Of a stretch of 64,000 bases of DNA, positions 849 to 64,000 are shown piece after piece. Positions within the stretch are counted from its first letter, which is position 1. Every line of letters begins with the position of its first letter. Location: positions 45,479,772-45,543,771 of the forward strand of contig NC_088714.1 in assembly GCF_963576615.1 (NCBI RefSeq), read 5' to 3'. Made by a program: the position numbers and the translations under genes. Source of the stretch: Watersipora subatra. Its lineage: Eukaryota > Bryozoa > Gymnolaemata > Cheilostomatida > Watersiporidae. The notes under the pieces are model-generated. The model had not been told where the DNA came from, searched no databases, and saw only the letters and a program-made list of their open reading frames with translations.

Positions 849-2526
849 ATGCTGCCTTTATTCCTTTTAGCCTTGCCTAAAGTACTGCTGAAGTATGTTC
901 ACCATCTCTGGGTGAGGATTGTGAAACTCATTTGGGTGCTTACTGATAAGTTTAAATATATTTTGGTGAGTCTAAACAGTTATAACTACTGTACTTAGTG
1001 CCTTTCCAGGTTTTTATAGAAAATGATTGTAAAGTGTGTATGTCATGCAAAAGGTGTGTTGCTGATGTTTTGAAACTGCAACAGATTGAATTTGTTGTTA
1101 TGAAAGCAAATAAACATACCATATAGTCAAAACTTGTTTTGCAAAAATATTATTGCACTCTATAACAATAAAACTTTTCATAGCAAATAGTGTTTCAAAT
1201 GAGGTTTCAAGGTTAAAGCCTTTCTAATCTATGTTTACTCCTAGCACTTAGTCATCAGTTCAGGTACATATTTATGTAGTTTACAAATTTATTTTAGGAA
1301 CTTCTGCAAAGATAGAATCTGCAATGAGTGGTAAAGAAGCTGCAGCTCCGGCTCATGTGCAGAGAGTGGTGTGGATCAATCCCTTTAGTTTTCAAGCAAA
1401 TCCGCAATGTTTTTTCACTGTTCATGAAAGGTTTGCGCCCGCCGATATTGTTTTAAAAAATAGAGTGCATCTTCTGTCAGCCACTTCAAAGAAAGCAACA
1501 TTCACAGAGGTTGATTCTGACATACTTGATTCAAAAAAGCATCCTTTCGTATGGTTGGCTCAAATAAAGCATTGTACCAGATTGATTGTTCTACCAATTC
1601 AATCATTCTATAAATTGGTAGACAAGATCGATGTGGAAGATCGAAAAGTAGTTTGGCTCTTCCATACAACCAGATGCGGCTCCACAGCCTGGGTGCAGGC
1701 ATTTAACTCTATACCGGGATGGGTTGCGTTTTCTGCACCACAAGCTTTGGTTTACAGTGTTGTACATAGTGATCATGGTTTTAGCTGCGCAGAAAGCTTT
1801 TCTAAAACAGAAGAATACAGACGTATATTGATAGCCACAATAACAATGTATCTACGACAAACACCTCCAAGCTGTTCAGTCCTATGGAAAACATTACATC
1901 TCGATGAACACATGATATACCATATTGTAAAGTGCTTTCCTCAGCATAAGTTTGTTTTGGCCTATCAAGATGTTCTCCCTATACTTAGTTCGTTTCAGCA
2001 AGTTTATGGGAATCATGTGGATCTGCGTTATCTCGCTGAACAACTGATGTACCGAGATCCTTCAGATGTTAACTGGTGGTCGCAAATATCCAATTTGGCG
2101 TTAAATACTAATGGTTTCAACCATGACTTCTGTATGAAGGTCATTGCTAGAGTAAGACCAAGGATGATGATTGAATGGGGCTGCTTTAGATGGTGTGCCA
2201 AGTTGACTACTATACAGCAGGCTCAACAGAATGGAATCAATATTAAACCACTCAAGTATGATGGTCTGGCAGAAAACAAACGAGCGACAGTCGTCAAACT
2301 TTTTGAATATTTGGATATTTCATCTGATTATGTAGATTTAGCCTGTGAAGCGTTAAACTATGACAGCCAAGCGGCGACTCCGAATGTCAAATGGAAAACC
2401 GGAAACACAAAAGAGCAATACCAATGGATGAAAGATGGTGAACTTGTCAAGTAGTGCAACATGATATTAGAAGTGTTTAGTTTCCCTTTTCTTGGCAGTT
2501 CATTTGATCTTGCAAATAGCATATAA
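849..2526 (+). pseudogene. Sulfotransferase-like gene copy 1, decayed
   Basis: This is the two-exon sulfotransferase gene of the array, with exon 1 at 849-945 and exon 2 at 1298-2526. The PAPS 5'-phosphosulfate loop (HTTRCGSTAW, second-exon residues 114-123) is intact. Three lesions are visible. The splice donor is ATAAGT at 946, where the other copies have GTAAGT. A TAG at 2452 replaces an Arg codon and removes the last 24 residues, although the frame beyond stays open to the usual TAA at 2524. The Arg of the 3'-phosphate-binding motif (YRDVLPxxS) is Gln (CAA at 1966-1968). Starting at the ATG at 1324 gives a 376-residue open frame without the N-terminal hydrophobic segment. A later alternative GTGAGT donor at 966 would break the frame. 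I call it a pseudogene or a gene under decay; a truncated product from 1324 cannot be excluded. An ATTAAA poly(A) signal lies at about 2584. Confidence 0.75.
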
Positions 2527-3940
2527 CTACTTTAAGTATATTCAATACTGGCAATACTGGTATGTTGCTGTAAGCTTCGTAATATTAAAATAAGGCTATT
2601 TGTTTAACAGAGTGAAGAGATGGAATAGATCTGTGCTAGATATTGCATGCAAAACAGTGACACAACAGTTTTGAATTAGATAACCAGTTTTTGTTTTGCC
2701 TATCTGACCACATTTAGCTAATTCATTAAGTTAATCAGCCACATTTGGCAGTGTAACCAAACACACTGAGCCTAATTATTACTTATGTGTAACTTATGTG
2801 TACTTATGGCAGTTTGAGTATTAAATTTAATACAGAGCTTGCGCATGCCTCTGCTCTTTGGTAATAATACTGATGTAATAATCCGCATCCATTCTGGCAC
2901 AATGTGTTTATTTGAACTTTTGATTAGATTTCAAGAACATAAGTTCTGCTAGCCAAAAAACTAACAGGGCTCTTCAGAACATTGAAAAAAATGCTACCAA
3001 CTGTGCCTGTGAAATTAGAGCATAGCTTTTACTTATCCTTATCAGCGACAAAGTCACTCAGTAATAACTCTACTAGACTATACATCAGTCATGTTATGGT
3101 TAGATAAAAGTAATGTTTACAGACAAAGGATTCAGCTTACTACTGATGATTTAACTATCGTCATTAAACTTATAAAAATAATGCGATCCAAACATTTGGC
3201 AGCAATTGGTAAGACATTAAATCATACTTTGTAAAAGAACATAAATATAAGTATCGGTTCTTGCTTTTTTTCCAATTCTGAGCATCCTCATAACAAAAAT
3301 ATTTATTAGTCTGTTAAAACCATCATTTTTTGAATTACAACAGGTAAATTTATATTGTAATTGTAACATATTTATTCATAGGATAATGTTTTTACTGAAC
3401 AAGGAGTTTAATGTCTTAATCATATAGTTACTCCAAATAAAATGTTAGCATGCTTAAAAAAGCTGTACGCATAATCAGACACATCATAGAGTGTTACCAA
3501 ACTAGACAACAGTTTTCGCATAAAGCTACACCTTGTGTTGTACAAATAATGGAAAATCAGCTTTGTTCTATTTTCATCAAGTGTTAGGTACAGCGATTAA
3601 TGTATCATATGCCAATTTTAAAGATACTGTTTCATCAGCTAATGTGGACTTACTGTTCATTGTGAACTTGAGGTTATGCATGGTAGGGTAGAAAATTACC
3701 TTCTGTTTATGGATGTAATTCTAGGGTTTGCATCACTTGCATTCTGATCTGGTCTTCGAAAAGGCCTTCGACAGTCGTATGAATAGGCTGAATTGTGTAT
3801 AAAGTTTAGGAAATTCTTTTGTATGGTAGCGAATAAAATTTGCCTAGCTCATTTTATCTCTGTAGTCTTTTTTCTCTTACGTCACGGTCAGGCATTTAGG
3901 AAATGAGAGTGTTAGATTAGTTTATTTATTAGCATCGTTG
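2527..3940. other. 3' flank of copy 1, no gene seen
   Basis: AT-rich non-coding DNA with no sustained open frame. Large parts are alignable by eye with the 3' flank of copy 3 (18359-19330), for example around 2710-2760, 3170-3260 and 3370-3440. The flank was therefore part of the ancestral duplicated unit. The matching part is missing in the right segmental copy because of the deletion there. Confidence 0.6.
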
Positions 3941-3941
3941 T

Positions 3942-5009
3942 TAGAGAGTAACCACCATACATCAGCATGATGTCATAGAGTGAACACTGTACATCAGCAT
4001 GTTGTCATAGAGTAACAACTGTATATCAGCTTGTGGTCATAGAGTAACCGTTGTATATCAGCGTGTTGTTATAGAGTAACCGTTGTATATCAGTGTGTTG
4101 TCATAGAGTAACCACTGTTACAGTACATCAGCATGTTTTCATAGAGTAACCACTGTATGTCAGCTTGTTGTCATCAAGCTACCACTGTACATCTGCATGT
4201 TATCATAGAGTAACCGTTGTATATCAGTGTGTTATCATCAAGTAACCGTTGTATATCAGTGTGCTGTCATAGAGTAGCCGCTGTATATCAGCGTGTTGTC
4301 ATAAAGTTACCACTGTACATCAGTGTCTTGTCATAAAGCTACCACTGTACATCCGTGTGTTGTCATAGAGTAACCACTGTACCTTAGCATTTTGTCATAG
4401 AGTAACCGCTGTACATCACTGTGTTATCATAGAGTAACCACTGTACATCAGCGTGTTGTCATAGAGTTACTGCTGTAAATCAGCGTGTTATCATAGAGTA
4501 ACCACTTACATCAGCGTGTGGCAATGGAGTAACCACTGTACATCAGCGTGTTGTCATAGAGTTACCGCTGTAAATCAGCGTGTTATCATAAAGTAACCAC
4601 TGTACATCAGCGTGTTGCAGTAGAGTAACCACTGTACATCAGCATGTTGTCATAGAATAACAACTGTACATCAGCATGTTGTAATAGAGTAACCAGTGCA
4701 TATCAGCGTGCTGTCATAGAGTAACAACTGTATATCAGTGTGTTGTCACAAAACTACCACTGTACATCAGTGTCTTGTCATAAAACTACCACTGTACATC
4801 CGTGTCTTGTCATAGAGTAACTGCTGTACATCAGCGTGTTATCATAGAGTAACCGCTGTATATCAGCGTGTTGTCATAGAGTAACCACTGTACATCAGCG
4901 TGTTGTCATAGACTAACCACTGTGCATCAGTGTGTTCTCATAAAGCTACCACTGTACATCAGAATCTTGTCATAGAGTAACCACTGTAAATCAGGGTGTT
5001 GTCATAGAC
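3942..5009. repeat. 32-bp minisatellite, left array
   Basis: About 33 tandem units of 32 bp, with a core resembling CATAGAGTAACCACTGTAC followed by ATCAGCGTGTTGT. Units differ by point changes (AACCGC/AACCAC, CAGCGTG/CAGCATG/CAGTGTG). Higher-order patterns recur, for example a CAAAACTACCACTG variant next to a TGTCTTGTCAT variant. The same array is present in the right segmental copy at 21931-22870. Confidence 0.9.
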
Positions 5010-13030: not shown

Positions 13031-15918
13031 ATGCTGCCTTTATTCCTTCTAGCCTTGCCTCAAATACTGCTGAAGTATGTTCACCATCTCTGGGTGAGGA
13101 TTGTGCAACTCATTTGGGTACTTAATGGTAAGTTTAAACATATTTTGGTGAGTCTAAACAGTTATAACTACTGTACGTAGTGCTTTCTTAGGTTTTATAA
13201 AAAAGTAGTTCTAAAGTGTGTATGTCATGCAAAAGGTGTGTTGGTGATGCTCTGAAACTGCAACAGATGGAGTTTGTTGTTATGGCAGCAAACAGCAAAT
13301 AAACACATCATAGAAAATTGTTTTGCTAAATTATCATAGTATTCTGTAACAATCAAACCTCTCATAGCAAATATTGCCTTTAGAAAAAGTTTCAAGATTA
13401 AGAGCCTTACTAATGTATTAATAATATTATAAACATGCTTTTGGAAAAGAGAGCATTTACTGCCAATCTCGTCGAAATGCTGGTTGAACATATATATGCC
13501 TTTGAAAAAGAAAGCACCACACCTCTAAAACAACAAGCTGCAATTAATCACCAACCGGAAAAATCTCGACTTATGGAAACCTAATTATCTGACACCTAAA
13601 GGATCATTCCCATGTCTAGGAAATTACACACTCTGCAACTGTGTTAGAGCCAACACTACCATAACCTGCAATTCCCCTATCTCATATGCGGTAACAAGAC
13701 CCATCCCTTCAAACACCTGAGCTACCAGACCAAGGGTTAGGAGAGACCAAATCCAGTAAATAAAGGATAGCCAGCGAAATACACACCTGAGACAGTGCCC
13801 AGAGACTACCTCTCCTAAACGTCCGAACCAAGACCAAACCAAAAGCAAGAAATGATCAGCCAGAAATGACAATTTAATATCAGACACAGCCACAAAAGTA
13901 CCTATTTTTGAAATTTTAATATTCATAATTTTTCCACAGGATCTTTCACGACATGTTGTAATCTTTTGTACGTCACAATTCTTTTAGTTAATGATACCCT
14001 GACTTATTTTAATCTCCTATAAATAGTAAAAACAGAATAAATACTGCAGCATTTTTCTAAGTTCAGCATTCAGTCACTGGATCTACACAGAGCAAGGAAA
14101 GTTGAGCTATTTTACAATATAATGTAAGGCAGTTGGTGAGTCTTACAATTTGAGAGTTATAAACTTATTTTAAACCTTATTTATTCAAGTCTTGGATCTT
14201 AATTAATCGATTAACTCTTTCTCCTGTTTTAATGATTTTTATTTGATTAATTTTGTTTAAACTACTTAAATAGTATCTTACCTTTAATATTTTGTGACTA
14301 GTTGTTCTTTGACAAATTCTGTCTTTATTAGAAATAGAACATTGTGAACTCTGCTGAAACAGTTTAATTATTGAGCTGGTAGGTTGCCCCACAAGTTTTG
14401 TCTTGGGGGTAGCTCGCAAGGTCAATGAACTTTCATGCAACTATGTCGATGCATCAAAATCATAACTGCATGTCTTGAGTTCAGGTTGTTGGTATTTAAA
14501 ATCCAGACATTATGCAATAGAACTAGGGTTTGTTTTTGAATATTGGTAGAGTAAATGACAATCAGTGCGCACCCTCAAACAACTTCACCGATGTATCAGA
14601 GGCAATATCTTTACAATATTAATATTAAACTCCTAGCACTTAGTTATCAGTTCAGGTACATTTTTATGTGGTTTACGGATTTATTTTAGGAACTTCTGCA
14701 AAGATAGAATCTGCAATGAGTGGTAAAGAATCTGCAGCTTCGGCTCATGTGCAGAGAGTGGTGTGGATCAATCCTACTAGTAGCCATGCAGATCCAGAAA
14801 GTTTTTTCACTGTTCATGAAAGGTTTGCTCCCGCCGATATTGTTTTGGACAGCAGGGTACATCTTCTGTCAGTCACTTCAAAGACAGCAACATTTACAGA
14901 GGTTGACTCTGACATACTCGATTCAAGAAAACATCCTTTTATATGGTCAGCTCAAGTCAAGCGTTGTACCAGATTGATTGTTCTACCAGTTCAATCCTTT
15001 TTTAAGTTGGTAGACAAGATCGATGTGGAAGATCGAAAAGTAGTTTGGCTCTTCCACACAACCAGATGCGGCTCCACAGCCTGGGTGCAGGCATTTAACT
15101 CTATACCGGGATGGGTTGCCTTTTCCGCACCACAAGCTTTGGTTTACAGTGTTGTACATGGTGACCATGGTTATAACAGCGCCGAAAGCTTTTCTAAAAC
15201 AGAAGAGTACAGACGTATATTAATAGCTATAATAACAATGTATCTACGACAAACGCCTCCAGGTTGTTCAGTCCTATGGAAGGCAATTCATCTTGATGAG
15301 CACATGATATACCATCTCGTAAAACGTTTTCCTCAGCATAAGCTTCTTGTAGCATATCGAGATGTTCTCCCGGTAGTTAGTTCTTTTCAGCGAGCTTTTG
15401 GGAAGTTTGTAAATCTGTGTTATCTCGCTGAACAACTGATGTACCGAAATCCTTCAGATGTTAAATGGTGGTCTCAAATATCTAATTTGGCATCATTTAC
15501 TAACGGCTTCAACCATGGCTTTTGTATGAAGGTCATTGCTAGGGTGAGACCAAGGACTCTTATCGAATGGTCCTGCTTTACATGGTGTGCCAAGTTGACT
15601 ACAATACAGCAGGTTCAACAAAATGGAATCAATATTCAGCCACTCAAGTATGATGGTCTGGCAGAAAACAAACGAGCAACAGTTGCCAAACTTTTTGAAT
15701 ATTTGGATATCTCATCTGATTATGTAGATTTAGCCTGCGAAGCATTAAACTATGACAGCCAAGCAGCAGCTCAGAATGACAAATGGAAAACCGGAAACAC
15801 AAAAGAGCAATACCAATGGATGAAGGATAGTGAACTTGTCAAGCGTTGCAAAATGATATTAGAAGAGTTCAGTTTCCCACTTCTTGGCAGTTCATTTGAT
15901 CTTGCAGATAGCATATAA
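13031..15918 (+). CDS. Sulfotransferase-like protein, copy 2 (intact, two exons)
   Basis: Exon 1 (13031-13127) encodes 32 residues starting MLPLFLLALPQIL, a hydrophobic signal-anchor-like segment. It ends at a GTAAGT donor in phase 1. Exon 2 (14690-15918) follows a TTTATTTTAG acceptor and rejoins the frame as G-TSAKIESA-MSGKE. The spliced product is 441 residues. A PAPS 5'-phosphosulfate loop HTTRCGSTAW sits at residues about 155-164. A 3'-phosphate motif YRDVLPVVSS follows, with Arg256 and Ser263 in the R-x6-S spacing. A C-terminal LKYDGLAENK resembles the KYEDL segment of sulfotransferases. The likely activity is sulfate transfer from PAPS in the secretory pathway; the acceptor is unknown. 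An internal start at 14716 would give 400 residues without the anchor. The intron is 1562 bp, against about 350 in sister copies, because of an insertion. The sulfotransferase fold is my recognition of motifs, not a database match. Confidence 0.8.
13415..14627. mobile_element. 1.2-kb insertion in the copy-2 intron
   Basis: Introns of copies 1, 3 and 4 pass directly from a CTTACTAAT/CTTTCTAAT-like sequence to ACTCCTAGCAC. Copy 2 has about 1213 extra bases here. The ends are AT-rich and roughly inverted (TATTAATAATATTATAAACAT against TTAATATTAATATTGTAAAG on the other strand). Inside, TCCTATAAATAG near 14015 is TATA-like and is followed by promoter- or LTR-like sequence. I see no transposase or polymerase frame, so this is a non-autonomous element or a solo repeat of unknown class. 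Confidence 0.5.
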
Positions 15919-16686: not shown

Positions 16687-18358
16687 ATGCTGCCTTTATT
16701 CCTTCTAGCCTTGCCTCAAATATTGATGACGTATGTTCACCATCTCTGGGTGAGGGCTGTGAAACTCATTTGGGTGCTTAATGGTAAGTTTAAACATATT
16801 TTGGTGCGTATAAGCAGTTATAACTACTGTTCTGAGCGTTTTTTCAGGTTTTATAGAAAATAGTTGTAAAGTGTGTATGTCATGCAAAAGTGTGTTGCTG
16901 ATGTTTTGAAGCTGCAACAGACAGAGTTTGTTGCTATGACAGCAAACAGCAAACAAACATATCATATTATAAAAAATTGTCTTGCTATTTTATCATGGCA
17001 TTTTGTAACAGCCAAACCTCTCATAGCAAGTATTTCATAGCAAATATTGCCTTCAAACAAGGTTTCAAGATTAAAAGCCTTACTAATCTAACTCCTAGCA
17101 CATTTATCTGGTTTACAAATTTATTTTAGGAACTTCTGCAAAGATAGAATCTGCAATGAGTGGTAAAGAATCTGCAGCTCCTGCTCATGTGCAGAGAGTG
17201 GTGTGGATCAATCCCTTTAGTTTTCAAGCAAATCCGCAATGTTTTTTCACAGTTCATGAAAGGTTTGCGCCCGCCGATATTGTTTTGGATAACAGGGTGC
17301 ATCTTCTGTCAATCACTTCAAAGAAAGCAACATTCACAGAAGTTGATTCTGACATACTCGACTCAAGAAAGCATCCTTTCGTATGGTTGGCTCAAATAAA
17401 GCGTTGTACCAGATTGATTGTTTTACCAGTTCAATCCTTTTATAAATTGGTAGACAAGATCGATGTGGAAGATCGAAAAGTAGTTTGGCTTTTCCATACA
17501 ACTAGATGTGGCTCAACAGCCTGGGTGCAAGCTTTTAACTCTATACCGGGATGGGTTGCCTTTTCTGCACCACAAGCTTTGCGGTGTAGTGTTGTTTTTG
17601 GTGACCATGGTTTTAGCTGCGCGGAAAGCTTTTCTAAAACAGAAGAGTACAAACGTATATTGATTGCCACAATAACAATGTATCTACGACAAACGCCTCC
17701 AGGTTGGTCAGTCCTATGGAAAGCATTTCATCTTGATGAACACATGATATACCATCTCGTAAAGCGTTTTCCTCAGCATAAGCTTCTTGTAGCATATCGA
17801 GATGTTCTCCCTATTCTTAGTTCTTCCCAGCGAGCTTTTGGGAATTATACCGAGCTGCGTTATCGCGCCGAAAAACTGATGCTCCGAGATCCTTCAGATG
17901 TTAACTGGTGGTCTCAAATATCCAATTTGGGGTCAAGTACTAATGGTTTCAACCATGACTTTTGTATGAGGGTCATCGCTAGGGTGAGACCAAAGAATGT
18001 TATTGAATGGAACTGCTTTAGATGGTGTGCCAAATTGACTACAATTCAGCAGGCTCAACAGAATGGAATCAATATCAAACCACTCAAGTATGACGGTCTG
18101 GCAGAAAACAAACGAGCGACAGTCATCAAACTTTTTGAATATTTGGACATCTCATCTGATTATGTAGATTTAGCCTGTGAAGCACTAAACTATGACAGCC
18201 AAGCAGCGGCTCGAAATGTCAAATGGAAAACCGGAAACACAAAAGAGCAATACCAATGGATGAAGGACGGTGAACTTGTCAAGCGGTGCAACATGATATT
18301 GGAAGAATTCAGTTTCCCTCCTCTTGGCAGTTCATTTGATTTTGCAAATAGCATATAA
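16687..18358 (+). CDS. Sulfotransferase-like protein, copy 3 (intact, two exons)
   Basis: Exon 1 (16687-16783, MLPLFLLALPQILMTYVHHL...) splices at GTAAGT to exon 2 (17130-18358) in phase 1, giving 441 residues. The intron is 346 bp. The PAPS loop HTTRCGSTAW and the 3'-phosphate motif YRDVLPILSS, with its Arg and Ser, are present, as is the C-terminal KYDGLAENK segment. Copy 3 differs from copy 2 mostly in the mid-protein acceptor-side region: RCSVVFGD for VYSVVHGD near exon-2 residue 143, and a changed NYTELRYRAEKLMLRD stretch. That pattern suggests, but does not prove, different substrates. It lies only about 0.8 kb after copy 2 in the same orientation, with its own conserved upstream block. 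ATTAAA at 18421 is a plausible poly(A) signal. A shorter product from the ATG at 17156 is possible if exon 1 is skipped. Confidence 0.8.
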
Positions 18359-21179: not shown

Positions 21180-21978
21180 ATGCTGCCTTTATTCCTTTTA
21201 GCCTTGCCTAAAGTACTGCTGAAGTATGTTCACCATCTCTGGGTGAGGATTGTGAAATTCATTTGGGTGCTTACTGGTAAGTTTAAACATATTTTGGTGA
21301 GTCTAAACAGTTATAACTACTGTACTTAGTGCCTTTCCAGGTTTTTATAGAAAATGATTGTGAAGTGTGTATGTCATGCAAAAGGTGTGTTGCTGATGTT
21401 TTGAAACTGCAACAGATTGAGTTTGTTGTTATGACAGCAAATAAACATATATAGTCAGAACTTGTTTTGCAAAAATATCATTGCACTTTATAACAATAAA
21501 ACTTTTCATAGCGAATAGTGTTTCAAATGAGGTTTCAAGGTTAAAGCCTTTCTAATCTATGTTTACTCCTAGCACTTAGTCATCAGTTCAGGTACATATT
21601 TATGTTGTTTACAAATTTATTTTAGGAACTTCTGCAAAGATAGAATCTGCAATGAGTAGTAAAGAAGCTCCAGCTCCAGCTCATGTGCAGAGAGTGGTGT
21701 GGATCAATCCCTTTAGTTTTCAAGCAAATCCGCAATGTTTTTTCACTGTTCATGAAAGGTTTGCGCCCGCTGATATTGTTTTAAAAAATAGGGTGCATCT
21801 TCTGTCAGTCACTTCAAAGAAAGCAACATTCACAGAAGTTGATTCTGACATACTTGATTCAAAAAAGCATCCTTTCGTATGGTTGGCTCAAATAAAGCGT
21901 TGTACCAGATTGATTGTTCGATTGATTGAGTGTTGTCATAGAGTTATCGCTGTAAATCAGCGTGTTATCATAGAGTAA
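21180..21978 (+). pseudogene. Sulfotransferase-like copy 4, truncated by deletion into a minisatellite
   Basis: Exon 1 (21180-21276) has an intact GTAAGT donor, and the exon-2 acceptor at 21625 is good. The reading frame matches copy 1 up to second-exon residue 89 (RLIV). It then switches through a short filler into the 32-bp minisatellite and stops at 21976-21978. A spliced product would be about 149 residues: the hydrophobic N-terminus, an N-terminal fragment and about 19 minisatellite-coded residues. The PAPS loop and everything after it are lost, so catalysis is impossible. The promoter block, including DR1, is intact, so transcription may persist. Confidence 0.85.
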
Positions 21979-22365
21979 CCACTGTACATCAGCGTGTTGC
22001 AATAGAGTAACCACTGTACATCAGCATGTTGTCATAGAATAACAACTGTACATCAGCATGTAGTAATAGAGTAACCAGTGCATACCAGCGTGCTGTCATA
22101 GAATAACAACTGTATATCAGTGTGTTGTCACAAAGCTACCACTGTACATCAGTGTCTTGTCATAAAACTACCACTGTACATCCGTGTCTTGTCATAGAGT
22201 TACCGCTGTACATCAGCATGTTATCATAGAGTAATCGCTGTATATCAGCATGTTGTCATAGAGTAATCGCTGTATATCAACATGTTGTTATAAAGCTACC
22301 ACTGTACATCAGCATGTTGTAATAGAGTAACCAGTGCATATCAGCGTGCTGTCATAGAATAACAA

Positions 22366-22408
<43 letters not shown>

Positions 22409-22870
22409 TGTGTTGTCACAAAGCTACCACTGTACATCAGTGTCTTGTCATAAAACTACCACTGTACATTCATGTCTTGTCATAAAGTAACCGTTGCACA
22501 TCAGCGTGTTGTCATAAAGTAACCACTGTACATCAGCATGTTATCATAGAGTAATCGCTGTATATCAGCATGTTGTCATAAAGCTACCACTGTACATCAG
22601 CATGTTGTAATAGAGTAACCAGTGCATACCAGCGTGCTGTCATAGAATAACAACTGTATATCAGTGTGTTGTCACAAAGCTACCATTGTACATCAGTGTG
22701 TTGTCATAAAGCTACCATTGTACATCAGCTTGTTGTCATAGACTAACCACTGTAAATCAGCGTGGTTGTCATAGAGTAACCACTGTACATCAGTGTGTTC
22801 TCATAAAGCTACCACTGTACATCAGGATCTTGTCATAGAGTAACCACTGTAAATCAGGGTGTTGTCATAG
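21931..22870. repeat. 32-bp minisatellite, right array
   Basis: About 29 units of the same 32-bp repeat as the left array. It is longer than the collinear part of the left array (about 940 bp against about 460 bp), showing recent expansion by blocks; the CAAAGCTACCACTG/TGTCTTGTCAT block recurs several times. One unit carries a (TA)n run at 22369-22405. Confidence 0.9.
22369..22405. repeat. (TA)n microsatellite inside the minisatellite
   Basis: About 18 TA dinucleotides replace the single TATA of the unit TGTATATCAG. The left array has no such run, so it arose after the segmental duplication. Confidence 0.95.
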
Positions 22871-25800
22871 AAAAGTAAACTACAGATCTTCAACTTTCTT
22901 AGAGTGACTTTTCATACTTTGAATGCACTTTTTGGCCTTTCTATCAGCTTCAAGGTATTATGGAAAGCAGGCTATGCTACATTGTATTAAAGCAGTATTC
23001 TCTAACAAACCTCTTGTAGTCTTGGCTAGCGTAAGAACGCCTATCATTTGACCTGACAGGTTTTGGTATCGCATGTCTGGTAAGTATGGATTTCAGTAAA
23101 CTATTGCCAATGTTGCTTATAATGCCTGAGAGATGACCAGATATATGGAATTTCTGGAGTAGTAGCCTGTGATAAAAATGTATCTTTGAGTCTTACAGTA
23201 TAATTTAGCTGTAGCAACAACTACAACTGTATGTTTAAAAGAACTTGTGGTTTGAGAAGCTCATGATTTTCAAGAGGGTGTAGCTCGCCAATTCTGCAGG
23301 TTTGATCTCTCGAATACTTTGTGCAATATTGTCGATGCCATTACATAGTGTTCTTTCTTTACACTTGTATCTGCCTGGATAATTTGTGTAAATGGATTTT
23401 ATTTGCCACTTCTTTCATTTACCAGTATCACTGCCTTTTGATTATAAATTGTAGATAGATAATGAAGACCAGCTCCATCTTTTTTGCAATACGAAAAGGA
23501 GGTTTGAGATATGGTTTAAAATTAGGGAGATAGTCACACTATCTACAATAAGCAAAGTATATCACCTGTCATAAAGTTGTGCTTGCTTGCTGTTCGGTTT
23601 TGAAATTGAATAAGCAGCGCTTAATGGCAGAAAAAGGCATTATTGTAGATATATTTGAAGTAGCATTTCTATTTCTCACAACAGTGTTTGTTGGAAAGGA
23701 AAATCAGTCATTTTGTTGCGTTTATTAGTTAAGTGTGTAACAGCAAATGGGTATTTCAGTGTTCAATGTTGTTGTCTCTGAAATCTCCTTGTAAGAGTTA
23801 CAGAGATTTAGCGTTGCTTTAAATCATTGCGTCTGTATGTTTGGTAGTGCACATCTCAGACACAGAGCAGGCCATACTATCCCTTGAGCAAATATTCCTT
23901 TGTTTTCTGCGCATCACATATCTGAGTTAGGGAGCTTTGGAAAGTTCTGTCGACAACTTCCATAGTTTGGAACCCATCGATATCGTATCTATATTATTAG
24001 CTGAGAAACAATGTTAGTGATTTAGTTAGCTCAGGAACCTTAGGAGAGAAGCTAACTAGTTGTTTTGTCTGCTCCAGAAATTGCACAGCTTTCTGGTACA
24101 TAAAGAGTTAGACAACTCCAAAATGTATAATATACAACTTGGGCCTGTGGGCAAACCTTGTCTCTTATGGATTTTTTTTAACAAACTAGTTTAACACCTT
24201 TTATGGTCTGAAATCATATCTAATCAGCAATTTGTGTATAATACTGTTGGCATGTTTACTTTTAATAAAAGTAGGCCTACTGTATACTAACAAATTGTCC
24301 ATGTAAAATACAGCATCATCGAGTACATCTGGAATGTCAACCATGCATTGTTGAAAGTTTATCTTTTCAATGTGCATCTAGATTAGTTATAAATTTTACT
24401 TTTGATATGTTGCTAAAAGTGCTTTTTGTTTATAGAATTGTCAGTTGGCTGTTGGACAATCTCTGGAAGATTGAATATGATGTCTGTATAGCCTACTGCA
24501 ACCACAAACTGTGCGTGTCTTCAAAACCATTGTTACACAAACAGTGGCTCTGTGATTTTGGATGAACATGCTTGAGTCTGATGGCAAGCAAACCTCAATG
24601 ACTGGGGAATGCCAAGTTGTGAAAAGCAAATAAAGATTGCATGTCATTTCTTTCAGCCCAAGCACGGATGTTTGTAGACTCATTTTTGGTACTTGAACTA
24701 CACATCAACACAGTAAGAATTGTTACTTTAGTTACTGTACTCTTGCTCACATTTTAAGCCTGGTTCCCATACACGCCACAAAAGCACCGGCGACAGCACC
24801 GCAGGCTATTGCGGTGAAATTTGAATTTATACGCCGGATACCGCCAGTTGTTGACGGCAGTCAACGCGAGAGTTTAGCTCTATTCAACTTTCGCGAAAAG
24901 CCGCAGGCAAAATTTTCCCATCATGCACTGTACAGGTGAAGGTCACCATTATCGAAACGGCATGGAGAGCGAAGATTTTATGTGATTATGTTTAGCGATG
25001 CAGCCTGGCGTTGCAAGCGTTATGCTGTGCAAGTTACTGCCGGATTCTTGCAATCGATATAGGAACCATGCTTTATTCAGCCATTTAGTTTACTTGCAAT
25101 ACTCCTAATTACATGTAAAACATATTGTACACCAAGTGTAACGTGGTGGGTTTCCCATTGTTTTTTTCTGGATTTTATATGGCTCAGTAGTTCTAACTTT
25201 GCCTAAACATGTGAATGCAACAAAAAAATTCCTGAAAAATTCTTAACAGATTCCAGTATCAACACAGTACAATTATTTGGTGTTCTATTGTGTGAGACCT
25301 AGTACTAAAAGTGCATTTTTACTATGTTGATAAGCTAATTATCGACTATATAAATTCATAACCTGATGTTATATCTTGATCAAACTACTTAGAAGTAATC
25401 CTTCCAACCAGAGCTGTACAGTGTTTCTGTTGTCTTCAGTGGTTTCTGATCACTTTGATAATCTGCTTACCAGGTAACATTACATCTGTACCAGAATTTG
25501 AGTGAGTAGTTGCACTTCCACATTGCCTACATTTGGATTGTTGTCTGTAAATCTTAGACAGTTTGCAGGAATGACTTTTTGATTTAAGATTACCAAGGTT
25601 TGATTTCATTAATTCCACTGTGCCGTTTCTGGTTCAGGCTTATCAAAATAATGGCAAGAAGTTTGTATTACCAACATTGAATGGATATGTCTGCAGCCTC
25701 TACTGAATTATAGCTTTTTTTCAAGTTTCATACTTTCACTAACTTTTACAGTTGAACTATTAATTGTGGAAGTATTATAGACACCTAAAGTTTTTGCAGC

Positions 25801-45497: not shown

Positions 45498-45835
45498 TCA
45501 TCCAACGCTTTCCCGCTCCTGTTTGACCTTTACTGCTGCCCTATCACCGGAGTTATCCCCATCTTCGGCACCATTGCTACCGACAGAGTCACCCATTGAC
45601 CTATCTACAGAAGATGACACTACAGGTAGCACTTTCTCAGCTAGTCTCTCCAGAGCGATGGGCTTCTCTACTGCACGCTCTTCTCGATGGGCCAACCTGT
45701 CATGGTTGTATTTCGGTGCAGTATATGTGGAGAGGATGTGCGTTATTTCAGATGGAAGGAAAGCCCATGGCACTGTGCCTCCTTCTAGCGGACACAACTT
45801 TCCACTCGGGCAAAAGACATCCTTCTTCGCCGCAA
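45498..45835 (-). CDS. IRF2BP: IRF2BP exon j, second half of the RING and C-terminus
   Basis: 338 nt including the stop, after CTTCCTGTTTTAG. It encodes [20 protein letters not shown], then [14 protein letters not shown], a charged tail ([11 protein letters not shown]), a Ser/Asp/Gly-rich stretch and [10 protein letters not shown]. The last Cys pair and VPWAF are family signatures. The 2.7-kb intron splits the RING between exons i and j. Confidence 0.92.
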
Positions 45836-48800
45836 CTAAAACAGGAAGCAGATTTTAGGACTGGCAACAGACACAATTATGATGGTAGATACAAAGGCAC
45901 GCTTTGTATACTATTCTGCTGGTGGCCTGTTGCTAGTAGCAGATCAAATTCAGCTACACTTGATATATAACCCCTATAATAGGCGGTGTCATATAGCCAT
46001 ACAGGGAGACTATAGGGAGTGTGTTGCACTGATAACATGTACGTTTGGGTGTGGTAGTAGAGGTCTACTGTTTAGCATAAACTATTGCTACTCCCTCTCA
46101 ATAGCTCACCTGTATTATGTAGAATTTAAAACTTATGAGATGTTTATCAGTTTATCTTGCAACCATGAAACACTCATGAGATGGCGTCTTTCGAACGTTG
46201 TTACCCAAGTTTTTAATATTCTATCGTGCGTTTATGGGAACTTCAATAATATCCATCACTAATTCTGAGAATAGCGTTATCTGCCCTACTGAAGAGAGAA
46301 ACCCATGTTTACCGTGTTAAGCCTGAGCTGTTGGAAGAAAATTTAGGGATCGCATAGCAATTTTAGTAAATGGAAATGAAACAACAAATGTAGATAATAA
46401 CTTAGTTCAAGTGATTGAATAGCTATAATGAAACCTTTAAATACTACCGCCTCCAGAAATCATCCTTCATTTTGCAAAAAGATCTCCTGAAAAGGGTTAA
46501 CATGAGGGCTGATACAGATACCAATCATTCTATCGTTCCGGACAACTAACTTGATCTCGATATTTTCCGTCGCATGGTGGAGTAATTACGCTATCACAGA
46601 AAAGTGATATAAAAATACATGTATCTTTCAGTATTCAAGAAAGAAACAGAAATATGTCAAAGCAAGTTCATATAGCTAGTGAGTAGAAGTGTCACAGCCC
46701 TGGTTTGCATTTCTAGCCAGTAGCCCGTGAATGGTTGACCAGGTCTAACTTCTTACAACACGAAAAGTGTCTTCTAAAAGGTTAAATCTGTGCTTAGTCT
46801 GGCATGTTTACAGGCGTCTTAAAATACTACGAAATACCAACCATCTGTTAACCCAAGTTCTGACCAAGCCGATTCAATCGGCTTTTCGGCCTGATTTTAT
46901 TTTGACCAAGCCAATCAAATAAGCTGTTACAATATTGTTTTATAACTTTTCTAATTAGCTCATATTTGTCAGTTTACCCAACCATTGTAAAGAAAACAAA
47001 ACAAAGAAACGTTTTCAGTTGGAGTCATTGCGATAATTTCCGCTTTACACGTTTTGCAAATAGAAAATATTTTCAAGAAAATGATTGTAACTCTGCTACT
47101 CTCAATATGGACAATGAAGACGTTTTAGGTCATTTAGATTCTGATGGGAGTGATTTCGTGGCCGACCAGACTAATGATGATTACTTCGAAAGCTCTTCTG
47201 ATTCAGATGATGAAAAATGTAAATAAAATTTAAATAATTTTATTTACATTTTTCATCAGCTTTTCATTCGTTGGTGTTGGTAATTCATTAGAGTGTTAGT
47301 CAGTCACACTCGGAATTAGACATCAAACTGAAGTTTCAACATGTAGTCAGTCACATGAAATTTGATCTAGAGTTGATTTTTCCGAGCAGAAAATTTTTCA
47401 TTACTGTGAGAGAGTTAGATTAGATCACGTTTATGTGTTAGTCTGTGAAAAATAAATCAAACAATTCATTATTACATGTATACATGTCATTGTCACGACT
47501 AATAATAATAGAGCTAGTATGCAGTATGAGTGAACAAATATTGAAGCAGTTGGTATGTTGCCTCAATATTTTCTTGTTCTTGTTATTGTTTTATCAAACA
47601 AATTCCTGGTCCAACCGTGGTTGTAATCAATGTTGCAATTCTTGTCTTCTTTTTCTAGCTGTATCCCCGGTTGTTGGTGCTCTACGAAGCGCCAGAGTGA
47701 GAGCTCGAGGCAGACGAGCTGTACGGGCCGTTATTTAGGCTGCTATCAGATCATGAGCTATGCTATGCTCACAGCTATGCTACTCATAAGCTGTGAGTAT
47801 TTTAATTATTCTTAATTGTATTAATATTTTATTAATAGATTATTATATTATATTTTTATATTATAAAATTTTATTATATAGTGTATTATTACATTATCAA
47901 TATTAATTAACAATACTGGTTTACTGTAACTCTCTGTTTGCGTTCATCTAGTGCAGTTTGCACACTCAAATATTATTAATTTGTTTTCTTTCCTTATTTT
48001 TAACTTAATCGGTTTAGAATAAAACTGCAATAAAATGAAAAATAATTAAGATAATTCTTAGAGATTTTGTGCAGATATTCTTCACACTTAGTCTTGCTGG
48101 ATTCTATTAAAAACACCTTCAAAAGAAGGACAATACCTTTGCCTACAACTCCTAACACAATCGAAAATTTTTTACGAAATTGTCTCCCCATAATGTATGG
48201 TCAAATATAGTGTATGTAATGAGCATTTACAACCTAGATTATGGTGCAGTTGGATTCTTTACTTTGTTAGCTTTCAGAAAATGTATGCATTGTTCAGGTT
48301 TGGTTGATAACTTTTTGATTTATTGGGGATTAGCCACTTGCGTCAATTATCTCTGAAATAGACGTCATTTGACAAACTTTTATGGTCGGTACTTCGGTTA
48401 AGGAAATATCTGGATTGAGTGCGATTAAACGAAACATAACCCCAGCATCAAAAAAAATGCCCAAGTATTTTAGTTTATAAATTGTAATAACCTTGTTGGT
48501 GTTTGATGCTGTCTTTGCTGCAGGGGAAGCAGAAACGATGACCCTTGACTGTCGGACATTGGACATAGTGAGCATCCTCGAGCTGCGAACAACAGAGGTA
48601 GCATTTCATTCTCATGTCTATGCTGCTCCTTTCCTCTCCCTTTCCACTACTCGTCGACAGCCTGCAACACACCTCAACTTTGTAAATCACCAGTTACACA
48701 GTTAACACAGTTAACACGCATGTAAAGGTCTGGTTATACTCACAGACAAAAAGCATAGCGTAAACATATGCTGTGGTTGCGCACTACAACACTAAGGAAC

Positions 48801-54078: not shown

Positions 54079-57000
54079 ATGAATGACAAAATATTGTGGA
54101 CACTTACGGACATAAAACCAACCTGTGTACACTTACAGACATACTATAAACCTGTGTACACTTAAGAATGCACAACCTACCTGTATACACTTAGGGACAC
54201 ACAACCAAGCTGTATGAACTTAAGAACACACAACCAACCTGTGTACACTCAAGGACACACAACCAATCTGCGTATACTTAGGGACACACAACCAACCTGT
54301 ATACACTTAACCACACACAATAAACCTGTGTACGGTTAGGGCACAAAACCTACCTGTTTACGTTTAGGAGATCTCCTCTCGCCTGGCTCCAAATTGGATG
54401 AACCATCTGAAGAGTTGATGGTGAATTTAGGTAACACTGGATAGTTGGGGTCTATCCGAGGCACTGCTAGGAACTCCTCTTTAACTGGTTCCTAAAAAAA
54501 TCATTAAAATTCAAACTGAATAAATCTCAACATAATAGGAAGGTCAGACAACTTCTACCTATCTAAACAGAACACTACTTAAGCATACACAGTACGTATA
54601 TGCGCTTACCATGGCTTTCTAAATTAAAATCAGTTTAACTGAAATTAATAAGCGCAAATAAACTTTTGCAAAAATTTTGGCGTTCTTTGGATGAGCTAGC
54701 TTTTTTTATTGAGAATTTAAGTTTTTTAAATCCTATTGTAATGATCTAGATTTGATCGCAAAGATCTTCCATTTGATCATTTTACTTCCTCACACCTGTT
54801 ACAGCATATGTTCAGTTTTCATTGACCAGAACTTGATAGGAAACACCTTCTTTACTTCATACCAACAGCTTGCATCTTTGCACACTATGGCTTGTTATTT
54901 CCCAGCACTTTCAGTGTCACGTGGCTGAAGCATTGCCAATCCAACCCACAACCAATTTTTTACAACAATCAAAACATTTGTTTCTCTTCTCCAAAACATC
55001 TCGTGACAAGCAAGATTAACCGTATGTCACATCTAGAAGAGCTCAGCTCTGTAAACCGACTTTGAGTATGCCTCAGGTTATTCACAACATGTCGAACCTC
55101 ATTAAAATATCACCCTTGTTGTTGCAATATTTAACTGATAAAATGTGTGAGTGTAGAATGGGATAACTCCCCACACACCATGTTCATCTAACAATACATC
55201 GAAGCTTTTTCTTGAGAAAACTTCTGAGATTACTAAAAACAGCAAAAGAACTTTGAACCGGCAAATAATTTCAAGTGCCTAATATAGGATGGAGAAACTC
55301 TTATAAATGGGGTCTGGAAGCGCATGAAATTAAACAGAGAAACCTGTTCCTTTATCTCCGACCAACTCAGATGAATAGACAATTGGTGGTGTAATATAAA
55401 ATCTGGCCATTAGAAATGATGACGAGAGTCCTGTCGAAGACTAGGAGTACAAATGAGCTCTTGTGAGCAAGCATTAAAGAGCTTGAAACATGCACAGTAA
55501 ATCCTCGCTCTTCAAGATTAATCTCAGCCAGCCCCTCCACCATCGCAATAAGCGCAAATCCACAAAATAGAAACTAATGTACTCATATCTAAATATCAAT
55601 CCAATAAAGGCACTTCTTCAGTTATCATTAGCATTTTCATTTATTCAGGTGCAATAGACAATGTTGAGGGTCAAGGGCGTATAAGAGGAGTGATGAAGGG
55701 CTATTTCACAAAATGTAACAAGAAAACAGTGAGCTGTGAAGACGGCTCTTACAATGATACCCCGGAGAGATCTCACTGGCCAAAAGTAAGAAAGAGATTT
55801 ATGTATTTTGTGTATTATATTTGTATTGATTTAATTTTCAACTTTGAACGAATATTTTTACTCCGTAAAGCGATAAAGCCACGAAATATTGAAGAGCTAC
55901 TGTAATAGCAACTCACAGCACACCTGTTTCCCTAATAAATAATAAAAAGTATAAACAGATCCAATAATTTCTACAGCAGTAATTTACCAATTTTCATTTT
56001 ACTAGAACAATGTTAGCGAGTTAAATCGTAAAAACCTCAATGAGCGATTAGGAAGATGACTGACCTTAAACGACCGAACATTCTCAGGCAGGAGATCACC
56101 GAGGAGCCTCCAGTCACCTGTGTCAGGTCTCACCTCATATTCTAGATATTTAAAGCCAGAGGAAAGGGGACGACTCTGCTCTTTTAGCGAGTTGTAACAC
56201 ATCTGTTTAGCCACGCCTGACGCAGATGTATATACCTAAAAAAGTCTTCAAGATATATCTCTGCGGCCATTACAAAGCTTGGAAGAATTCAGGCGAATGG
56301 AAAAATATCCATTAAGGACTTGAGCCTTAGCATCTGAGTCTCCTAAAATGATGACCAATTCTAACCATCTCTCTGTAGCAACTTGGAGAATATACTGAAC
56401 ACAAGGAAGCTTTTGCTAGAAGCGGGCAACTGCAATACCTCCCACCCCCTTATATGGTCTATGTGACAGATATGGGCAGTCCTTAGAATAGTTTAATTGT
56501 TTTAAAAGTTCAGCAGACACCCTTAAAATTTAAATACTCTGTTCCGAAAATGGTTACGGTATACCAAGCTAAAATACATGTAAATAACTTATTCCGTTCC
56601 AAAATCTTTCCAACCTTACCCCTTTGGCCCCCCAAAATGAAACAGCTAAATTTCTCAATTTAATGACTCTACGGTAACTGTGGAATTACTGTTTTGTACT
56701 GACAACTTTTCCCTGTTTTCTTATCACTTTTACTCAGTTTAGATTACAATAATTTTATGTAAAGTTAAAAGGAGCACTTACCTTCAACGTCAATTAAAAT
56801 TGTTTTTTTCCTTTTTTACTCCACAACGAGGTCTATGGTGCAAATCTAAAAGTTTATGGCTAAAGTAGCGGAAAAGTATAAGTTTCTCCTATACATGATT
56901 TTCTCTCCTAAGTGTTGGAAAATAAAAGCCAATACCTATCAAAGCTAGCTATGAAAGGCTGGTTATTCAAATCTAATTTGAGAATTTGCACCGACTTGAC

Positions 57001-60000
57001 GCTTTACGATATATGGAAGTTCTCACATAATCCTTCCTTTTTTCGTGACCTCATTCTTTCGTTGTCTGCCATCTTTATGGACAACTTTTATCGTTAAAAA
57101 CACGAAGCTTCTGCAATTAATATCGCAAACAATGCTTTTGTTTGCAAATTTTTTATTTTAGTGTCAAAACAACAGCGAAAAAACTACTAATCCAGAGAAT
57201 GACAATTTTTTCTACAAAGATAGCGGCTTTTTCGCGGACGAGCGCATGTGCAAACAGGGTTATGACGTCAAAAAAAACAACGATGGATACGAAGCAAAAC
57301 CTTTACATAACCCTTTAGGTTCAGAGAAATTTATGTAAAAGGTTTACGTATATGGCGTCTGCTGTACTCAGAAATGCTATATTACCAACACCTGCCCACT
57401 CGATGTTCAATACACCACAAAATCTAGGGCTAGGTATCAATACCCTTTGGATAGTCTATATGTCATGCATTTCTAACTATCTACAGCTTAAGAATGGTAT
57501 GTGTCAGCAACTTCTAGGTGCTTTGCACGCTGCAGCATCTACATTAGAGCTCGGGAATGGCAAGGGTCAATCAATATCTGTCCGATGGTTTATATGTCAC
57601 AACATCTAGAGCTCGCGAATGCTAAGTGTCCCAATAACTACATCAATGATCGACAGCACCAAATGTCAAGACCTGTACAAAGCACCTGAGTTGTCAATAT
57701 GTAACAATATCTAAATCTCAAAGATGCTATGTCAGTTCCTTATATTTCGCTTCCATTCCGCAATATTTAAATGATCACTGAGTAATGCCAAATGATAGTA
57801 CCTGCCCAGTAATGCCAAATGATAGTACCTGTCCAGTAATGCCAAATGATAGTACCTGCCCAGTAATGCCAAATGACAGTACCTGCCCAGTAATGCCAAA
57901 TGATAGTACCTGCCCAGTGCCTTTGGGGTATTCGATGAAGAGTTTCAGATCGTAATCTGTTCCTGACTTGTGGCTAGCATCAAAAGCAAAGACACGACCC
58001 CTCTCCGAATGAGCTTTTTTGAACCGCACTTCGAATGGAGTAGACTTGGCGAGGACTTGCAAAACTGATATAACATGAGGCGGCTGCAACAAATAGAGAC
58101 ACCAATGTTTTATAACGCAGCTCTGTAAGAACACTTCGAGTCTCAGAAGGCCTCGAATACCGTGGAGTTTTGATTCGAAGATTGACTGACCAAACAGTAC
58201 CAGTAACAAGCCTAGGTCAGTAGTCTCTTGTATATAGAATTGAAAAAATAAAAATCCTTAATAAAAACCTGCAAAGCCAACTCACACTATAAATATTATA
58301 TGATGTATTATGAAGATCATTGAGACCTAAAAGGAAGCTATTACGGGAAAACTTAATAATTACAACTAACTATGGACTTGCTTTCAATACAAACTCAAAC
58401 ATTCTTGAAGAGAGTTGTTCCCACCATGTAATCAAGGAAAGACAACAATGCATACCTTAGTAGTGTAGTCGAGGTTAAGAGGAGCTGTCAATGGTCTACA
58501 CTCTTCGCTGCCTGGTGTGACCGGGGAGGTCAGGCCATCTCCACTTACAACTGGAGTGCCACTCAATCCCGGTATACCTGGTATAACCGGTAACCTGTTC
58601 TTTTGACCCCAATTAGCTGCAGCAATACGGGCGGCAGCCATACCTGAAAGAAACCTGTCCTGATGAGAAGAGGCATCCAATAGGAAGCACTACATGAAAC
58701 TGAACAGCCTGTGGAATTCAGCATTGTAACCAAGTACAAGGTCGGCTGAAGGTGAACGAATATTATTCTCTGCAATTAACCAAAAAGCTATCTTATTAAA
58801 AATAGCAAAAAACCTTGATTTTGGTGTTTAAAAAGATAAATAATATCTGCCAACTGAATAGGCCGTTAGCAGTGGACACACATCAGCCAACTGAAACTTT
58901 CGACATCGGCTGCTTCAGCTGAGAGAAGCAACAAAAGAAAACCGAAAATCTAACAGCAAAACTACATTGGTTATGCATAATTCAATTTAGTAAGACGACA
59001 CAAAAACTCATATTTTACCGAAAACCTGAGCAAACATTTCATTTTACTTGAGCAAATGAGATATTCACTTATTATCCCAAACAGTTAATTCAATTGGATT
59101 TAAGAACGTGATTATTTAAAGAATGTAAGAATAACACTGGAAATGGCCAAAACGACACAGATATAGCTACTAAGCCCAACCAATCGGTTGTAACCAATCT
59201 TACAACCAATCCCGATTGGTTGTAAGAGAATCCAAATTGACATCATATGTAAGTTCCAGAACATTGGCTGCTTCGATCAAGATACAACAACTTCAAAAGC
59301 TTCAGCCCATTTGCCCTATAGCCACCTCTTGAGGAAGTCTCACAACCAGCATTAATAAAATGGATTGGTTGGTTTAACACCGACTGTCAGCACGAAGTCC
59401 TAGCTTTCCACTGATAAAACATGGAGATGCCTTATTAGAGCTAAAGGGCTTTAGCTTTGATGCATTGTCTAGCCATCTTATAACTCTGGTGTTTTACTTC
59501 CAGCCTTTTCTAGTTTGTAACACCTTATGACCTGCGCGAGACAGACACAACTGTAACTAGTTCAGCTTGTAGTAAGTAAAGTGGGCTTCTAGTAGTTTGT
59601 AAATGCTTAAAGGTTGACTTGCAACAAAATTCACATTACAGTTATTTGATATCTACGGATTCACCATGTCTTACTCTGTTGTGTTGTAGATGCCAAATAT
59701 GTGGGAATGTGATTACAAGCTCTTAAAAGCTAAAAAACGAACAGTTAAGCGCAGCCGCACGAGACTGCCGTAGTTTGGATTCTCTTTCCAAAACGGTTCA
59801 AATGTGACGTAGTTGTGAGAGATGGTTTCTGTTTATACTTTCATGCAACCTTATCCGTCGAAAAATTTTTACAAATATACTTGACGCATTCAATAAAACC
59901 ACGTCTATCATTCTTACGCATCTATTTTATCGTCATTGTAATGCTGTCACTTTGAGCACTGATATCTTATAACTTACCATAAAAATTCATTTAATTTTTT

Positions 60001-63907: not shown

Positions 63908-64000
63908 CTGCCATATAATTGATAACATACATGAAAACTGAGAAAATTCATGACAATTATCCTTGATTTACACATGTGATAAGAAAACTGACACTTTACA

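Follow-up and report, generated by a model that had tools for sequence, protein, structure and literature searches.

The 5' splice site (donor) of one exon of an IRF2BP gene in the bryozoan Watersipora subatra, here called exon d, stands at the head of a 27-bp minisatellite in which it recurs in five near-identical copies. The reading favoured here, with a probability of roughly 0.7, is that of a mirage-type minisatellite in which the first donor would do most of the splicing while donors 2 to 5 would be low-level intronic passengers; a function of the array as a ladder of in-frame isoforms is less likely. The array, its five donors, their common reading frame, a conserved junction without insert and a second donor-headed array in the same gene are observed directly. 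The window, that is, the whole stretch of DNA analysed, comprises 64,000 nucleotides (NC_088714.1, positions 45,479,772 to 45,543,771), and all positions given below refer to it unless otherwise stated.

The IRF2BP Gene and Its Exons

The window has a eukaryotic appearance, and the IRF2BP domains point to an animal. The gene lies on the minus strand and extends from beyond position 64000 to about 45498 (Table 1). Pfam profile scans detected in it the middle domain PF25457 (178.1 bits against a cut-off of 23) and the C-terminal C3HC4 domain PF25454 (102.1 bits against a cut-off of 26), and these two matches bear out the gene name IRF2BP proposed in the original prediction; the N-terminal zinc finger of IRF2BP would fall past the window end at 64000. 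The lengths of exons d and e are multiples of three, and the intron that separates them (intron d) is of phase 0. The end of exon f rests on the reading frame, a stop codon and the donor sequence, its downstream partner exon not having been located. Among solved structures the query found no match up to an E value of 1.

Table 1. Exons, donors and donor-headed minisatellites of the IRF2BP gene (window positions; a slash marks the exon-intron junction).
Feature	Position	Strand	Description
Exon d	57910..58083	-	174 nt, 58 codons, 3' end in phase 0, ends ...EYPKGTGQ; PF25457 match across d-e; 60% identity to the relative L001
27-bp minisatellite	57781..57918	-	5.1 copies, 96% matches (TRF); last 9 nt of exon d, then into intron d
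Donor 1, CAG/GTACTATC	57909..57910	-	Last exonic base 57910, intron from 57909; no gap at the junction in PF25457 or L001
Donor 2, CAG/GTACTGTC	57882..57883	-	Last exonic base 57883; one VLSFGITGQ block added if used
Donor 3, CAG/GTACTATC	57855..57856	-	Last exonic base 57856; two blocks added if used
Donor 4, CAG/GTACTATC after GGACAG	57828..57829	-	Last exonic base 57829; three blocks added if used
Donor 5, CAG/GTACTATC	57801..57802	-	Last exonic base 57802; four blocks added if used
Exon e, acceptor partner of exon d	56065..56235	-	Ends ENVRSFK; 67% identity to L001
Exon f	54354..54491	-	EPVKEEF...RSPKRKQ; donor CAG/GTAGGT
29-bp minisatellite	54095..54361	-	9.2 copies, 75% matches (TRF); last 8 nt of exon f
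3' part of the gene as far as located	45498..48661	-	C3HC4 exon 48661-48492, last exon from 45835; PF25454

The Minisatellite at the Exon d Donor

The exon d donor (CAG/GTACTA) had been predicted to be the first of five 27-bp units with near-identical donors, a description on which TRF, a pattern search and the CAG/GTACT core shared by all five units on the minus strand agree. The pattern search, a 27-mer search allowing up to three mismatches, returned five matches with 0 or 1 mismatch each, and a chance origin of the repeat was rejected on the basis of 100 shuffles that gave no match. The array itself was found where it had been placed (57782-57916), although those ends fall short of the TRF array (57781-57918) by 1 and 2 bases. 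In gene orientation the unit reads ACTGGGCAG/GTACTATCATTTGGCATT, repeated, and is composed of 9 nt of exon-like followed by 18 nt of intron-like sequence. Two transitions separate the units, one that changes GTACTATC to GTACTGTC at donor 2 and one that changes GGGCAG to GGACAG ahead of donor 4. Neither alters the encoded residues in the read-through frame, a pattern that coding use would fit as well; as 10 of the 27 possible transitions in the unit are synonymous, this property is too weak to be used as evidence.

The unit translates as VLSFGITGQ, each further donor adds one such block in frame, and the read-through frame from exon d into the intron stays open for 44 codons, so that the donor ladder, considered as sequence, is in frame and free of stops as predicted. 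An exon d extending beyond the array was rejected because of the stop that follows these 44 codons. The idea that internal units serve as acceptors or as sites of recursive splicing was likewise rejected on their pyrimidine fraction of 0.53, a weak test since this value is below that of six of the eight acceptors of the gene, equal to that of one and above that of another.

Two minor repeats occur nearby in intron d: a 21-nt look-alike of the unit (57659-57679), 76% identical at best, which may be due to chance, and a degenerate 24-nt element that is present three times at intervals of 62-63 bp (57482-57630).

The Junction Without Insert

When donor 1 is joined to exon e (56235), 130 residues fall on 130 positions of PF25457 with no gap, giving the full score of 178.1 bits. 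With one extra block the score drops to 167.5 bits (10.6 bits lost) and the protein has 9 residues more than the profile has positions; with four blocks it is again 167.5 bits and the match is split in two stretches. These values cover three of the five possible isoforms (n = 0, 1, and 4 inserted blocks). The same junction is crossed without a gap by the alignment to L001, the one relative found among 120 candidate stretches in a scan of genome contigs. L001 is an intronless, uninterrupted animal-like IRF2BP reading frame (1056-3182 of its contig, with an in-frame ATG at 1134). The frame from this ATG (1134-3182) sits on a metagenome-assembled genome (MAG) contig binned as a Polyangiaceae bacterium, where its presence is probably due to contamination of the MAG.

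On account of the gap-free fit to PF25457 and the gap-free alignment to L001, the join without insert most likely represents the ancestral protein, as far as can be judged from the sequence. This bears on the ancestral protein and not on the choice of donor in the present animal, which DNA cannot reveal. A relative with the same intron was found neither in the genome contigs nor in the viral contigs, where the protein scan gave no match in 16 and the exact 24-mer of the repeat no occurrence.

A Second Donor-Headed Array in the Same Gene

The donor of exon f (54354, CAG/GTAGGT) also heads a minisatellite, in this case with a unit of 29 bp. The two arrays overlap their exons to a similar extent (9 nt at exon d, 8 nt at exon f), and that of exon f is the more diverged (75% against 96% matches). 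Its GT is kept in six of the eight later copies and lost in two. A donor matrix that had not been adjusted to this animal gives 10.06 for the first donor whereas, of the seven later copies scored (the copy at 54268 was left out), one equals it and six reach 6.04 or less. Read-through from exon f meets a stop after five codons, which each of the eight later copies would bring into the message.

Donor amplification has thus taken place at two sites of the IRF2BP gene, in frame at exon d and out of frame at exon f. Since all of the later exon f copies bring in a stop, donor copying in this gene is independent of whether the resulting frame is usable. The in-frame array of exon d requires no special explanation or selection, because a unit that is in frame and stop-free is expected by chance in about one case in four; this is a rough estimate of our own (one third for the length, multiplied by about 0.75 for the absence of a stop in six intron codons).

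Comparison with Known Systems

The so-called mirage minisatellites of amphioxus, found in Adh3 and in the globin genes BflGb6 and BflGb9, are tandem duplications of exon-intron boundaries (PMC3087553). The exon d array is likewise a head-to-tail array with a unit that spans an exon-intron boundary and with splice signals in its units, and judged by these features it looks like a mirage-type repeat, a class thus already described in amphioxus. The amphioxus arrays show further likenesses: they are minisatellite-like tandem copies of the boundary, AG/GT signals are present in many units, more than one locus is affected, and the Adh3 units (10-72 bp) span a range that takes in the 27-29 bp units described here (PMC3087553). 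In amphioxus the boundary concerned may be a 5' or a 3' one, while the bryozoan gene holds two arrays, both at donors; and, unlike the amphioxus mirages, the 27-bp unit keeps the frame and makes the extra donors compatible with coding. Although many amphioxus units hold AG/GT, the Adh3 data and RT-PCR on the globins suggest no interference with regular splicing, and arrays of six and three units are reported for two haplotypes of one gene (PMC3087553). Copy-number variation of the exon d array between individuals, as raised in the original prediction, is plausible.

Introns gained through tandem duplication have been described in fission yeast (SPOG_01682 and SOCG_00815; PMC3629103) and in the potato RdRp gene (PMC4974935). 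As here, every tandem unit (24 nt in fission yeast) contains a proto-splice site, but in those cases a duplication inside the gene makes a new intron, whereas the bryozoan array is headed by a donor that was already there, and the internal AGs of the array are not indicated as acceptors by the weak pyrimidine test mentioned above. The copies in intron d are on the donor side; the best match within 120 nt upstream of the exon e acceptor is 13/24, although old copies would have decayed.

Units of about 30 bp that alter gene structure are also found in human genes of segmental duplications, where those variable internal tandem repeats that lie at exon-intron boundaries may give rise to new introns; the cases summarized there are recent human paralogues and mostly concern elongations of exons and introns (PMC2812944). 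Within the protein family itself, human IRF2BP2 has two splice isoforms, B being shorter than A by 48 bp of exon 1, or 16 residues (PMC3504151), so in-frame length isoforms do occur among IRF2BP proteins. That change is within exon 1 of the vertebrate gene and no repeat is mentioned in the passages on isoforms A and B (PMC3504151), whereas an insert in the bryozoan protein would be located inside the conserved middle domain.

Origin of the Array and Choice of Donor

Under the preferred reading, slippage or unequal crossing-over would have copied a 27-bp segment made up of the last 9 nt of exon d and the first 18 nt of intron d. The process may have started from a short ACT that is present both at the end of exon d and 27 bp downstream in the intron, and that in the last copy is followed by CAGTGA; slippage between the two ACT copies could have produced the first duplication and unequal crossing-over the remaining ones. 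With the copies downstream of the original donor, the exon would have stayed intact and the first donor would still be able to make the ancestral protein. Donor 1 would be dominant with some leakage to donors 2 to 5, and this leakage would be mild, with rare in-frame inserts tolerated, since the unit by chance consists of nine stop-free codons. The choice of donor, the age of the array, the mechanism and the tolerance of inserts are what we infer in this account.

Published work on competing donors points in two directions. In a designed reporter library the first of two tandem donors was favoured when both were of equal strength and was predominantly used when both were consensus sites, a result that concerns donor pairs in selected native contexts rather than five donors (PMC6783452); elsewhere the intron-proximal donor is stated to be favoured when two comparable ones exist (PMC6002489). 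As amphioxus mirages are reported to leave regular splicing intact while these two sources are at odds, dominance of donor 1 is expected at the probability given at the outset.

The alternative that survives best, though we hold it to be unlikely, is a functional ladder in which several donors are used at sizeable rates, zero to four VLSFGITGQ blocks are added to the middle domain and the copy number sets the range of isoforms. The equivalence of the donors is consistent with it, since the matrix gives 3.60 for four of them and 4.02 for donor 2 and the U1 pairing energy is identical across all five, as are the stop-free unit with its synonymous differences and the precedent of the two IRF2BP2 isoforms in human. 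It is opposed by the second array, which the gene could not use in this way, by the rate at which an in-frame, stop-free unit is expected by chance and by the site of the insert, a conserved and otherwise gap-free stretch in both PF25457 and L001.

Somewhat less credence is given to the view that the array offsets a weak donor (GTACTA) without producing isoforms, five weak sites recruiting U1 better than one and the first or the last of them being used. Upstream donors acting as enhancers of an authentic donor are mentioned, with reference to Hicks 2010, in PMC6002489, and donor d has the lowest score among the seven donors of the gene (3.60 against 4.36-10.06), so that donor 1 need not dominate. 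However, these scores come from the same unadjusted matrix; with a U1 duplex energy of -7.1 kcal/mol, donor d pairs more stably than three of the six other donors, and the exon f donor, one of the two strongest in the gene, is yet also array-headed. Being lowest by the matrix and not weakest by U1 energy, donor d leaves room for either leakage or a role in U1 recruitment.

It is improbable that most splicing goes through the last, intron-proximal donor and that the usual protein carries four extra blocks: the preference stated in PMC6002489 and a frame that is open to the end of the array would allow it, but the 36 added residues split the PF25457 match and the reporter work favours the first donor (PMC6783452). 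Tandem repeats are easily mis-assembled, but an assembly artefact, in which the true number of units differs, is highly improbable for an array of only 138 bp with two distinguishing unit differences.

Do Donors Seed Minisatellites?

The association of tandem copies with donors was examined at 422 AGGT sites scored on both strands, the extreme window ends being skipped: 6 are donors of the gene (donor b, which lacks AGGT, is not among them), 12 more fall within the two arrays and were excluded, and the remaining sites number 404. A tandem copy with 16 or more matches in 21 bases, located 15-80 nt downstream, is present at 2 of the 6 donors and at 3 of the 404 other sites (Fisher p = 0.0018); at 15/21 the figures are 2/6 and 5/404 (p = 0.0036). 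When the six arrays with a period of at least 20 were placed at random in 200,000 trials, only 0.036% of the placements put two of them with an edge within 10 bp of one of the seven donors. No comparable copy was found 15-120 nt upstream of any of the eight acceptors, the best match being 14/24. Against a looser background, in which 646 of 18,200 sampled window positions (about 3.5%) have a copy at 16/21 or better owing to large 32-bp arrays in the window, two of seven donors are far less striking.

Donor-linked tandem copies are therefore a lead, and one more interesting than the ladder; they are only a lead because the tests were framed after the arrays had been seen and concern one gene whose donors alone are annotated. 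A wider proposal is unlikely: that donors in this genome seed minisatellites, exon-intron boundaries being preferred starting points of tandem copying (two of seven donors, none of eight acceptors in this gene), and that units with a length that is a multiple of three provide a conserved transcriptional regulator with a ladder of in-frame isoforms that depends on the allele, the number of blocks varying among individuals. With one array in frame and the other not, the gene offers a natural test piece for the choice of the spliceosome among several donors with one core. If donor-seeded minisatellites were common in this animal they would constitute a mutational route to new introns and isoforms, as has been proposed for the amphioxus globins (PMC3087553).

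Other Features of the Window

The large arrays that raise the background are at 3937-5008 and 21930-22871 and have a similar 32-bp unit in 33.3 and 29.4 copies (TRF), respectively. Four similar open reading frames occur on the plus strand (1252-2454, 14644-15918, 17099-18358, and 21580-21978) encoding 400, 424, 419, and 132 amino acids, the last of which is a fragment that runs into a 32-bp satellite array; the frame at 17099-18358, scanned from its Met, had no Pfam match at an E value of 0.1.

Within intron d a full consensus donor, AAG/GTAAGT, is located at 56782 on the minus strand, where it is at the top of the 98 GT sites scored in the intron with the same matrix and could mark a hidden or alternative exon. 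Between 57280 and 57040 on the same strand, GACGTCA and GCACATGCGC accompany a short ATG-initiated reading frame in the intron, a combination that, on our reading of the motifs, might represent an internal promoter or a first exon.
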